A stretch of 64,000 nucleotides of DNA from Rhodothermus sp. (lineage in GTDB: Bacteria; Bacteroidota; Rhodothermia; Rhodothermales; Rhodothermaceae), in assembly GCA_030950375.1 (NCBI GenBank), contig JAUZRN010000030.1, forward strand, positions 1 through 64,000, written 5' to 3'. Each line of letters begins with the position of its first letter. The stretch's first letter is position 1. The position numbers were made by a program, and so were the translations under genes. Shown one piece after another: positions 18 to 4,425 of this stretch. The notes beneath the pieces were generated by a model. It saw only the letters and a program-made list of their open reading frames with translations. It ran no database searches and was not told where the DNA came from.

Positions 18-209
18 ATGGCGGACGCTGCAGTGCCCAAAAAGTCGTGGGCGCGTCCCACGCTCAAGGAGCTTGGTGCGTTGAAGGCGCTGACGGGTTC
101 AGGATGGGGAAGGCCCCCGCACATTCCACGAGGTTGGGGCCATCACTGGGGCCATCACCATCCCCACCACGGGCCCTGTCCCGCAGGGGGGGATCTCAGT
201 AGGATCTGA
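18..209 (+). CDS. RiPP precursor peptide with lasso-type leader and His/Gly/Pro-rich core
   Basis: A 63-residue peptide. Residues 11-26 fit the lasso leader signature YxxP-x-L-x3-G-x5-T, with W11 for Tyr, then P14, L16, G20 and T26. Family knowledge places leader cleavage two residues after that Thr, after G27. The predicted core (28-63) starts SGWGRPPHIP and holds eight His, eight Gly, six Pro, three Trp and one Cys (C54). It has no Asp or Glu until D59, so a normal lasso macrolactam (acid at core position 7-9) cannot form. The exporter and leader-recognition genes follow on the same strand. The ATG is 17 bases from the window edge, so its upstream signals cannot be judged. The product could be a non-lasso RiPP or a metal-binding peptide. 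Confidence 0.7.
   Translation: MADAAVPKKSWARPTLKELGALKALTGSGWGRPPHIPRGWGHHWGHHHPHHGPCPAGGDLSRI
135..158 (+). repeat. 12-bp tandem duplication inside the precursor core
   Basis: The 12-mer TGGGGCCATCAC occurs twice back to back (135-146 and 147-158), encoding the repeated Trp-Gly-His-His of the core. This suggests the His-rich stretch grew by duplication. Confidence 0.8.
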
Positions 210-281
210 AAGAGCCCACGCACGTTTTGTGGAACCTTGTTGTTTCCATATCGTCTGGAGGTTTACTTTGAATAGATCGCA

Positions 282-2186
282 TTGCTCGATCTTATGCAGC
301 TAATAGGGTCGTGGCGCCGGAGTCTACAGGAAGTGCAGGTGAAGATAACTTATCTGGTACGGGCGCTGCGACTTATCTGGGAAGCGACAGGTCGTTGGAC
401 GCTGCTTTGGTTGCTGTTCCTCCTGGTCAGTGGGGTGCTGCCCGCTGCGCTGGTGTACCTGACGAAGCATCTGGTGGATGCTGTAGCAGCCGCCATTGGC
501 GGTGGACTTTCGTGGGCGACCGTGCAGCCGGTGCTGTGGCCAGCCCTGCTCATGGGGGGGGTACTGCTGCTGTCGCAGGGCCTGAGTGGGTTGACGAACT
601 GGATCCGCACGGCGCAGGCCGAACACGTGCTGGATCATGTGAAAAATCTGATCCACGCCAAAGCGGCTGAGGTCGATCTGGCCTTCTATGACAACCCGGA
701 TTACTACGACCACCTGGAGCGGGCCAACAGCGAGGCGGCCAGCCGATCACTCTCGCTGCTGGACAACCTGGGGAGTTTACTCCAGAACGGGGTGACGCTG
801 CTCAGCATTGCCGCCATTCTGGTGCACTACAGCATCTGGTTACCGCTGGCCCTGTTGCTGACCACCCTGCCTGCCCTGTTCGTTGTGGTGCATCATCATC
901 GCCGTGAGCATGCCTGGTGGACCGCGCATACGGTGGATCAGCGCAAAGCCGGATACTTTGATCGTCTGCTGACCATGGCCTTCTTCGCGCCAGAAGTGCG
1001 GGTGTTCGATCTGGCCGGCCATTTCCGGCAGCAGTATCAGGAAGTGCGGCGGCGGTTGCGGGAAGGACGGCTGGAGCTGATGCGTCGACAGGCCTGGGCC
1101 AGTCTGGGGGCCGGTCTCGTCGGTTTGCTGGCCACAGCGCTGGTAATGGTCTGGATGGTCGCGCGGGCGCTTCGTGGACTGGCCTCGCTGGGCGACCTGG
1201 CGCTTTTCTACCAGGCGTTCAACCAGGGACAGGGGCTCATGCGCGCGCTGCTCAGCAGTGCCGGCCAGATGTACGCCAACACGCTCTTTCTGGAACACCT
1301 GTTTACGTTTCTGGCACTTCCGTCTGGGTTGCCCGATCCAGAGGATCCGGTGCCGGTGCCACGACGACTGCGGGAAGGCATTCGCTTCGAACAGGTCACC
1401 TTTCGCTATCCGGGTAGCAGTCGGCCGGTCCTGCAGCAGCTCGATCTGTTCATTCCGGCCGGTCGCACGATCGCCATCGTGGGGGCGAACGGCGCTGGCA
1501 AAAGCACGCTCCTCAAGCTGTTGTGCCGGTTTTACGATCCAGATGAAGGGCGCATCACCATCGACGGGATCGATCTGCGGCGCTTTCGCCGGCGTGAGCT
1601 GCTTGATGCCATCACCGTGCTGTTTCAGTTTCCCGTACCCTACCAGGACACGTTGGCCCGTAACATCGCGCTGGGCGATCTCAAGCAGCCGCCGACCCGA
1701 GCCGCCATCGAACAGGCCGCCCGGAGCGCGATGGTCGATGAAATCGCCCGAAAGCTTCCCGAAGGGTATGATACGCTGCTGGGTAAGTGGTTTTCAGAAG
1801 ATGGCGCTGAGTTGAGCGGCGGCGAGTGGCAGCGGGTCTCGCTGGCCCGGGCGTTTTACCGACAGGCGCCCATCGTTGTGCTCGACGAGCCCACCAGCGC
1901 CATGGACTCCTGGACGGAAGCCGAGTGGATGGACCGCTTCGGCGACCTGGTGCGCGGCCGTACGGCCCTGATCATCACGCACCGGTTCACCACCGCTATG
2001 CGTGCCGATCTGATCTACGTAATGGACGAAGGACGGGTTATCGAACAGGGCACCCATCATCAGCTACTGGCCCTGAACGGCCATTATGCAGCTTCCTGGC
2101 GTCGCCAGATGCGCCAGCACCTGGAAGGAGAACCGTCTGACTTTCCAGCTCAAGTTTCCTTGCCGCCGGTCGATAAAAAACGTTAG
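282..2186 (+). CDS. ABC transporter, permease-ATPase fusion (RiPP exporter)
   Basis: A 634-residue half-transporter of the McjD/MsbA type, expected to dimerise in the inner membrane and export the mature peptide made from the preceding gene. The first ~330 residues hold the transmembrane helices. The nucleotide-binding domain has Walker A GANGAGKST (401-409), signature LSGGE (511-515), Walker B IVVLDE (531-536) and the switch His at about 567. There is no N-terminal C39 peptidase domain, so leader removal must come from another protein. The start is uncertain: TTG at 282 or ATG at 294. A good GGAGG (257-261) is placed for neither. Operon with the precursor and the PqqD-like gene is inferred from order and spacing. 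Confidence 0.88.
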   Translation: MLDLMQLIGSWRRSLQEVQVKITYLVRALRLIWEATGRWTLLWLLFLLVSGVLPAALVYLTKHLVDAVAAAIGGGLSWATVQPVLWPALLMGGVLLLSQGLSGLTNWIRTAQAEHVLDHVKNLIHAKAAEVDLAFYDNPDYYDHLERANSEAASRSLSLLDNLGSLLQNGVTLLSIAAILVHYSIWLPLALLLTTLPALFVVVHHHRREHAWWTAHTVDQRKAGYFDRLLTMAFFAPEVRVFDLAGHFRQQYQEVRRRLREGRLELMRRQAWASLGAGLVGLLATALVMVWMVARALRGLASLGDLALFYQAFNQGQGLMRALLSSAGQMYANTLFLEHLFTFLALPSGLPDPEDPVPVPRRLREGIRFEQVTFRYPGSSRPVLQQLDLFIPAGRTIAIVGANGAGKSTLLKLLCRFYDPDEGRITIDGIDLRRFRRRELLDAITVLFQFPVPYQDTLARNIALGDLKQPPTRAAIEQAARSAMVDEIARKLPEGYDTLLGKWFSEDGAELSGGEWQRVSLARAFYRQAPIVVLDEPTSAMDSWTEAEWMDRFGDLVRGRTALIITHRFTTAMRADLIYVMDEGRVIEQGTHHQLLALNGHYAASWRRQMRQHLEGEPSDFPAQVSLPPVDKKR

Positions 2187-2202
2187 CTTTCTGTAGTCTG
2201 CT

Positions 2203-2535
2203 ATGAGTCTGCTGCATCGAACGGATACGCCTATGGAGCGCACCGCGCTGACCCTTGAAACCGTCGTCGTCGCCTCTCCCGAACAGGTCTCCTCCAGGCT
2301 GGGCGAAGAAGTGGTTATTCTGAACCTGCGCAATGGGGTCTACTACGGACTGGATCCGATCGGCACGCGCATCTGGGAGCTCATCCAGGAGCCCCGTTCC
2401 GTGCGTCAGGTGTGTGAGGTGCTGCTCGAAGAATATGAGGTCACTTTTGAACAGTGCGCCGAGGATGTCCTGGCGCTTATGCGTGATCTGTATGCCCAGG
2501 GCCTGATTGAGACCCCTGAGGATCAGGGCACGTAA
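2203..2535 (+). CDS. PqqD-like RiPP recognition element (lasso B1-type)
   Basis: A 110-residue single-domain protein of the PqqD family; ATG at 2233 is an alternative start. Its body (EVVILNLRNGVYYGLDPIG, then a winged-helix-like region) matches RRE/B1 proteins, which bind the leader peptide and present the precursor to the maturation peptidase. It starts 16 bases after the exporter and is the last gene of the locus. A separate B2 (transglutaminase-like) peptidase and an Asn-synthetase-like cyclase are normally encoded nearby. Neither is to the right, so they are either left of the window or absent. The 3' end overlaps the convergent next gene by 13 bases. Confidence 0.85.
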   Translation: MSLLHRTDTPMERTALTLETVVVASPEQVSSRLGEEVVILNLRNGVYYGLDPIGTRIWELIQEPRSVRQVCEVLLEEYEVTFEQCAEDVLALMRDLYAQGLIETPEDQGT

Positions 2536-3296
2536 ACAAGAACCTGTTGAAAATGCCGGTTGCCTGCTTTCAGCCGAACGACATACAGCCCGGCCGGTAG
2601 CCTGTCGGGGTGCCAGGTGTACCGGTAAGTGCCCGGCCGTAACGACCCAGTAAGCAGCCGTGCTACTTCCTGGCCCATCAGGTTGTACACCACCAGCCGT
2701 ACCTCGGCCGCTTCTGCCAGATCGACCTTCAAGGTAACATGGGTGCGAAAGGGATTGGGGTAGGCTGCATGCAGTCGGGTCACGGCTGGCAGCTCGGTTG
2801 CAGGTGCTACAGGGGTGGCTCGGTCTGGAATGACAATCATCCGGGCCACTTTGTACAGCGCATTGGGCTGGTACCGGCCACTGTCCAGAAATACGTTGCC
2901 CGAAGCGTACTGCACCTCAATTCGTCCGTTGTCCGGACCGATATGCTGGTCCCGATCCCGATCCCACACATGAAACAGAATGGTGTCGCCCGGTGCAAAC
3001 CCTTCCTTGGTATCGGGCGTGATCAGTGGATCGTCACCCCATAGCGTCAGCACCATTGATTGCTGTCCATCCCACACCGCAGCTCCTGCGCAGATGCCCT
3101 CCGGCGTGTAAGCGGCCAGCTCGCTACCCGGGGCAAGGGGAACGCCATCAAGCAGCGGGGGCGTTTCGAGCGGAATCGTCAGCGTTGCATTGTTGTCGGT
3201 TCCTCTGGTACATCCAGTAAAAAACTGTTGACCTTTTGCAGGAAATGCTATCAGCAGGCTCATGGGCCATATCCACCGGTACCACAACCCCATCAT
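2523..3296 (-). CDS. secreted protein with type IX secretion sorting domain
   Basis: A 257-residue protein with an N-terminal signal peptide (about 1-22, hydrophobic, ending near AKGQ). The body has no recognised catalytic motif. The C-terminal ~80 residues contain YPNPF, VYNLMGQEV and LPAGLYVVRL, the hallmarks of the Por/T9SS type A sorting domain that directs export and surface attachment in Bacteroidota-type bacteria. The middle part mentions no obvious metal site; a small beta-sandwich is likely. ATG codons at 3296 and 3293 are both possible starts. A functional link with the convergent RiPP locus is not supported by orientation. Confidence 0.85.
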   Translation of the reverse strand: MMGLWYRWIWPMSLLIAFPAKGQQFFTGCTRGTDNNATLTIPLETPPLLDGVPLAPGSELAAYTPEGICAGAAVWDGQQSMVLTLWGDDPLITPDTKEGFAPGDTILFHVWDRDRDQHIGPDNGRIEVQYASGNVFLDSGRYQPNALYKVARMIVIPDRATPVAPATELPAVTRLHAAYPNPFRTHVTLKVDLAEAAEVRLVVYNLMGQEVARLLTGSLRPGTYRYTWHPDRLPAGLYVVRLKAGNRHFQQVLVYVP

Positions 3297-3516: not shown

Positions 3517-4425
3517 ATGCAAAAGCGAGGGATAAAGATCGGACTGCTGAGCGGACTCCTCGGGCTGGTTGGCGTCGCACGGGCGGATGGCCTGGTGGAG
3601 ATCACGGATGTGGTCAAACGGGCTTTCAAGGTCGCACCGGATGGTCGTCTGGAGGTAGAGGTTGACCGGGCCGAGCTGGAGATTCGCGCCACCGAGGAGG
3701 CTGCCGTTTACGTCGAAGTCATTCGCACCCTGCAAACCGAACGGCGTGAAGAGGCCCGGCGGTTACTGGAAGCGCACCGGCTTGTCTTTCAACAGGAAGG
3801 CCAAACGATTTACATCAAGTCGCAGCTTTCGGAAGACGGAAGCTGGCGTTTCTGGAAGCGCAAACGCACTCGGATCAAAGTGACGATTCGTTTCCGAGTG
3901 CCCCGGCGCTTTCACGTGATGTTCACAAACGGAGCGGGCAACGTAGCACTCAGTGATCTGGAAGGCGAGGTTGAAGGAGAAACCGGGGCAGGTAATGTGA
4001 CGCTGCGCAATCTGCGGGGAAGGGTCCAGATCAACACCGGAGCCGGTAATGTGGAAGTGACCGAACTGGAAGGAAGGTTGGAGGTAAAGACTGGGGCGGG
4101 CAACATTACGATCAAGGGATTGCGTGGAAGTGCTGAGGTGGAGACCGGGGCGGGCAACATTACGGCCGAATTTGTGGCCCCTCCTGAACAGGATAGCCGC
4201 CTGGAGTCAGGGGCAGGCAATGTAACGGTTTTTGTACCTGTGCAGGCAGGCTTTACGCTGGAGGCTGCTACAGGGATTGGATCGATCAGCACCGATTTCG
4301 AGCTGCGCATCGATCGCGATTGGATCGGCGCCAAAGCACGTGGTGTGGTGAACGGGGGAGGGCCTGCGCTTCGCCTGGAGGCGGGGCTGGGGAACGTGTC
4401 GATCCGTCGGTTGCCGAGCTCCTGA
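3517..4425 (+). CDS. DUF4097-type secreted solenoid protein
   Basis: The chosen ATG (3517) is followed by a signal peptide ending near ARADG; the frame is open 54 bases further upstream, but that part lacks signal-peptide character. The protein (302 residues) carries five GAGNV/GAGNI units spaced exactly 18 residues apart (codons starting at 3931, 3985, 4039, 4093 and 4147), ending with SGAGNVTVFV and GLGNVSIRRL. This is typical of the DUF4097 putative-adhesin family, predicted to fold as a beta-helix. It probably sits in the periplasm or on the cell surface. Precise function is unknown. It may be co-transcribed with the membrane protein 104 bases downstream. Confidence 0.8.
   Translation: MQKRGIKIGLLSGLLGLVGVARADGLVEITDVVKRAFKVAPDGRLEVEVDRAELEIRATEEAAVYVEVIRTLQTERREEARRLLEAHRLVFQQEGQTIYIKSQLSEDGSWRFWKRKRTRIKVTIRFRVPRRFHVMFTNGAGNVALSDLEGEVEGETGAGNVTLRNLRGRVQINTGAGNVEVTELEGRLEVKTGAGNITIKGLRGSAEVETGAGNITAEFVAPPEQDSRLESGAGNVTVFVPVQAGFTLEAATGIGSISTDFELRIDRDWIGAKARGVVNGGGPALRLEAGLGNVSIRRLPSS

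Follow-up and report, generated by a model that had tools for sequence, protein, structure and literature searches.

A second precursor gene without a ring acceptor in the lasso operon of Rhodothermus, and its probable linear product

Lasso clusters and their linear relatives

A lasso ring is formed by an Asp or Glu at core position 7-9 that closes on residue 1, and precursors lacking an acid at these positions misfit the usual lasso picture and are easily overlooked. The rhodolasso cluster is represented in NCBIfam by models for a precursor (NF033534), a cyclase (NF033535) and a PqqD chaperone (NF033536), and our literature search found no papers on Rhodothermus lasso peptides. Positions -17, -14, -12, -8 and -2 have been published for lasso leaders, and HPrK-like kinases phosphorylate Ser3 of a lasso precursor (PMC10368454). 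The linear polyphosphorylated peptides (LPPs) of Bacillota are phosphorylated by HPrK-like kinases, carry lasso-like leaders with the motif YxxPxVLxHQxIxFETxxS and are often encoded near lasso clusters, with an RRE of their own and a SipW-like peptidase (PMC13381572). An HPrK-like kinase phosphorylates such a linear peptide with a lasso leader, and the lasso and linear precursors of Bacillota are each served by separate, discriminating RREs (PMC13381572).

We analyzed a 64,000-nucleotide stretch of DNA (the window) that begins at base 1 of contig C30 in a 3.03-Mb genome, in 68 contigs, of the thermophile Rhodothermus. The initial annotation had described an exact lasso-type leader with Trp in place of Tyr, a 36-residue core with eight His and no acidic residue before position 32, and exporter and PqqD-like RRE genes after the precursor gene. 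These observations were all borne out (Table 1), with D32 as the only acid of the core. Its broader claim, of an undescribed system at the level of the entire locus, is not supported, since a canonical cyclase for lasso peptides lies on the left side of the operon, where relatives also have precursors already modelled in NCBIfam.

Table 1. Features of the operon and of the adjoining genes within the window
Feature	Position	Strand	Basis
A2, second precursor gene of the lasso operon, 63 aa, ATG start	18-209	+	ORF; orthologues in six other genomes; pN/pS <1
Predicted leader, residues 1-27	18-98	+	motif match; invariant residues in seven orthologues; binding and cleavage predicted
Predicted RRE-binding motif WARPTL	48-65	+	within A2 leader
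Predicted core, 36 residues	99-206	+	conserved S1, SG(W/F)GxPP and C-terminal LSx
D, MsbA-like ABC exporter without peptidase domain	282-2186	+	PF00005, PF00664; MsbA-type matches
B1, discrete PqqD-type RRE	2203-2535	+	NF033536, 80.1 bits (cut-off 80); PF05402, 75 bits; PDB 9x90, TbiB1 5v1u
Protein with type IX secretion C-terminal tail	2523-3296	-	adjoins operon; conserved in relatives
DUF4097 protein with repeated GAGN(V/I) segments	3520-4422	+	adjoins operon; conserved in relatives

The operon around A2

The contig edge lies 17 bases upstream of the A2 ATG, so the remainder of the operon is invisible within the window. In five relatives the operon is contiguous on one strand in the order K (HPrK-like), C (cyclase), A1 (one or two copies), A2, D and B1, and one A2 gene always stands beside A1 in these contiguous operons. 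The lasso cyclase sought to the left of the window was found in the relatives' operons and on a second contig of the same genome, C66, which ends 89 bases past a cyclase gene that is preceded by an HPrK-like gene. Synteny and similar flanking sequence across the contig gap suggest that C66 and C30 join, which would place the window's A2 in the same setting of cyclase, B1 and exporter. The C66 cyclase scores 740 bits against NF033535, the lasso isopeptide-forming cyclase (cut-off 525), and the SGGLDSS motif of the operon cyclase is intact. A1 matches the "rhodolasso" model NF033534 in six of the seven Rhodothermus genomes examined; no A1 gene was found in the window genome, where it may lie within the C66-C30 gap.

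Its genes mark this as a lasso cluster of a known kind, with A2 as a second precursor that matches no family model. It had been proposed that the leader machinery was reused here for something other than a lasso peptide. One part of this survives, as a precursor-like A2 does lie beside the RRE and exporter genes; but the canonical cyclase and the modelled A1 precursors indicate that the machinery is common to A1 and A2 and not wholly reused.

Of the solved chains, 9x90, which is named a lasso PqqD chaperone, is the nearest to B1 (61 bits), and 9x8z, a "PqqD family protein", is more distant (28.7 bits). PMC13381572 describes PbaB1 and LppB structures to which these two entries may correspond, although this is a guess. 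Translation of D more likely starts at the ATG at 294 than at the upstream TTG. The HPrK-like K protein scores 42.5 bits against its nearest curated model, far below the cut-off of 200; a profile of the HPrK-like proteins does find HPr kinases, with the P-loop and TDD kept, and the AlphaFold model of the protein is uninformative (pLDDT 34). No RNA families were found in the first 6 kb of the window, a promoter and terminator scan gave results near chance, and a hairpin between A2 and D in the window was no better than in shuffled sequences.

Upstream of K (region L033:3111-9420 in the window genome, G000:C66), several species carry a gene for an NTP_transf_5 nucleotidyltransferase, together with genes that by appearance encode FAD oxidoreductase-, homoserine dehydrogenase- and endonuclease/phosphatase-like proteins. 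NTP_transf_5 and its accompanying genes are not adjacent to K in genomes G002 and G004. Genome G006 (L026:452-2650, L032:1-2520) has two cyclase genes on two contigs, a second, cut copy of A2 at the edge of contig C60, and a precursor of a third kind, which has Ile at -2 and the core DIPPGDCLKPSGVGDVLRDSQDPSLLCFGDH.

A2 as a conserved precursor without a ring acceptor

The A2 leader of the window genome is WARPTLKELGALKALTG and the core is SGWGRPPHIPRGWGHHWGHHHPHHGPCPAGGDLSRI. If the cut follows G27, residues W11, P14, L16, G20 and T26 of the ORF become W-17, P-14, L-12, G-8 and T-2, and the predicted cut is preceded by T(-2) and G(-1). The lasso-type leader pattern, [Y/W]xxPxL followed by T (or I/V) at -2, is present in the window A2 and in all of its orthologues (WARPTL...G.....T). 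The strict form [YW]xxPx[LIV]xxxGx5T occurred once among all window ORFs that are 30 aa or longer, against 0.16 occurrences expected after residue shuffling, which is weak evidence taken alone. Conservation at one operon position across the genus is, by comparison of the genomes, strong evidence for A2: the gene occupies that position in all seven, and leader residues W11, P14, L16, G20, T26 and G27 are invariant.

The A2 reading frame is kept in six relatives, with conserved core ends and a variable middle. S1, G2, W/F3, G4, P6, P7, P10 and a terminal LSx are conserved in the seven orthologues, while the middle is rich in Gly, Trp, Pro and His and varies in length. The ratio pN/pS was below 1 in both leader and core wherever it could be computed, although as a simple count on short segments it is rough; core residues 1-10 are identical at the protein level among G002, G004 and G005 despite silent changes. 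We conclude from these comparisons that A2 is a protein under purifying selection. A chance ORF is rejected by the conservation in seven of seven genomes and by pN/pS. The AlphaFold model of the A2 precursor has no confident fold (mean pLDDT 56, pTM 0.13), which argues against a globular protein, one of the two possibilities that the initial annotation named as refuting its reading. Searches of 40 relatives and of 296 genomes from the phylum turned up no convincing A2 outside Rhodothermus; the phylum search returned only weak partial matches (E 0.003 or worse), and the ORFs around these and other weak matches looked like chance.

The core had been predicted to be unable to form a lasso ring, and comparison of the orthologues supports this for a macrolactam of 7-9 residues: Asp or Glu at core position 7-9 is missing from all seven A2 cores, and the G001 core has no acidic residue at all. 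As a control, we took 78 loci of related cyclases from named genomes; outside Rhodothermus, 24 of the 25 leader-motif precursors beside these cyclases have Asp or Glu at position 7-9. Set against this control, the absence in A2 is a real departure from lasso precursors. A frameshift or misassembly concealing an acceptor does not apply, as the frame is unchanged and the acceptor missing in the six relatives. A later cut, which would give the window core an eight-residue ring GPCPAGGD (G25-D32), was also rejected, being unsupported by the orthologues and impossible in the acid-free G001 core.

The A1 peptides provide a second departure. A1 genes were located at L027:8444-8828, L028:7829-8188, L029:8539-8896, L030:7586-7945, L031:8081-8230 and L032:239-394. 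If cut at the usual point, two residues after T-2, the A1 cores have no Asp or Glu at 7-9 and instead carry an acid at 2-3 or 12-19. Nine of ten A1 peptides contain GKxGGxxD, with the Gly-Asp spacing of an eight-residue ring and a conserved Cys on each side, and such a ring would require the leader to end 5-7 residues later. The genus may thus depart from the customary rule for cleavage or ring closure, so either leader removal or ring size would be unusual throughout, or A1 would not be a lasso peptide either. This departure keeps alive another reading of A2, in which the cyclase closes a non-standard macrocycle. The ring might join the N-terminus to an Asp close to the C-terminus, spanning ~30-40 residues, or run head to tail. 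A cyclase with an intact SGGLDSS motif in the same operon, together with the conserved core residue 1 and C-terminal LSx, would suit such a product; but the acid-free G001 core leaves the C-terminal carboxylate as the sole partner, and we know of no lasso cyclase that makes rings of either kind. We regard this reading as quite unlikely.

The likely product and its relation to LPPs

With the cyclase unable to close a ring of 7-9 residues, the A2 core would most likely be released as a linear peptide rich in Gly, Trp, Pro and His, and the operon probably makes a second, linear product. Our best explanation is that A2 is a companion precursor whose peptide, linear and possibly phosphorylated, is made with the leader, RRE and exporter of the lasso system; taken in full, it has about an even chance of being right. 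It draws on operon membership in relatives, leader conservation, the missing acceptor and selection. The A2 leader would be bound by B1, as the RRE common to A1 and A2, and would probably be cut after G-1 by a lasso B2 peptidase encoded elsewhere in the genome, and the linear peptide would be exported by D. Possible targets of phosphorylation by the HPrK-like K are Ser1 and the third-last Ser of the core. Both are kept in all seven cores and are the sole Ser/Thr residues in five; K may instead act on A1 only.

B2, which might have been expected to the left of A2, is absent from the operon; one B2 match over the cut-off was present in every one of the seven genomes, always at a separate locus. 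Removal of the A2 leader by B2 in trans is plausible. Where the contig extends far enough, the B2 locus (L034:7218-9078 in G000:C59; L122-L127) contains second HPrK-like and PqqD genes, and no recognized precursor or cyclase was found there in the genomes read. Given that B2 lies outside the operon with PqqD and HPrK-like genes of its own, its cleavage of A2 is a guess.

The rhodolasso cluster shares its operon, leader motif, B1 and D with A2, whereas the A2 core is unrelated to that of A1 and lacks both the ring acceptor and the two Cys. NF033534 gave no match to the window A2 at E<=0.1 (curated cut-off 30 bits), and the G001 A2 reached 17.1 bits, through the leader alone and below that cut-off. 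A2 is thus a lasso-type precursor, to judge from its leader and operon only. The constant pairing of A2 with A1, its occurrence only where rhodolasso genes occur and its complete leader are also what would be expected of an accessory peptide of the lasso pathway, such as a leader-bearing decoy, a regulator or a self-protection peptide occupying B1 or D. A mere decoy would have no need of the intact T-2 cleavage signal, however, and the core is under purifying selection that keeps S1, SG(W/F)GxPP and LSx; we consider an accessory role unlikely.

As a linear product, the core might have either of the activities suggested initially. Binding of metal by an unmodified His-rich peptide is favored by the eight His of the window, G005 and G006 cores, but the count falls to four in G002 and G004, three in G003 and one in G001. 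Since His-richness is not conserved, a shared metal-binding function is very improbable. A membrane-active antimicrobial peptide rich in Trp, Gly and Pro would fit the composition of all A2 cores, which have 3-5 Trp, abundant Gly and Pro and a net charge of +1 to +5 without His. This concerns composition only, however, and the charge is small in most species, leaving antimicrobial action at a low probability; it is compatible with the linear companion peptide, for which activity is left open.

The LPP family is the nearest functional precedent for A2, with which it shares a lasso-like leader, a putative HPrK-like kinase, an MsbA-like exporter, a discrete RRE, a ringless variable core and the vicinity of a lasso cluster. 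Unlike an LPP, however, A2 has a WxxP leader without the YxxPxVLxHQxIxFETxxS motif, a host outside Bacillota, one RRE in the operon for both precursors, and a B1 that is closer to the lasso chaperone 9x90. A search with TIGR02228 found no SipW-like (archaeal-type) signal peptidase in any of the seven Rhodothermus genomes, with Bacillus subtilis on the control list. A2 may therefore work like an LPP, yet without this peptidase and leader motif it is not a member of the family. The paeninodin-like and Bsf phosphorylated lasso peptides (PMC13381572, PMC10368454) have in common with the Rhodothermus system a putative HPrK-like kinase, split B1/B2, a cyclase and an NTP_transf_5 gene, found nearby in several Rhodothermus species, and the WxxP leader of A2 is like that of paeninodins. 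They differ in that A2 lacks a ring acceptor and that the Rhodothermus B2 lies outside the operon.

A selected, acceptor-less A2 inside this operon throughout the genus suggests that linear peptides, too, can be produced with the lasso set of leader, RRE and exporter, a point relevant to the divergence between lasso peptides and linear phosphorylated ones. One Rhodothermus RRE seems to serve both precursors, unlike in Bacillota, which is directly testable. A bolder proposal, which we hold to be doubtful, is that one operon would make two RiPPs through one RRE and exporter, a cyclized A1 and a linear, Ser-phosphorylated A2. The latter would represent a class that resembles LPPs but lies outside Bacillota and originated inside a lasso cluster, with B2 replacing the signal peptidase.

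In G002 and G004, a further small ORF lies ~2 kb past the operon (L030:12905-13060, L028:13145-13435). No NCBIfam or Pfam model matched it; its leader, FEPPRLKYQGRLTEQTG, is lasso-like, and it ends in the six residues GSFNFS.
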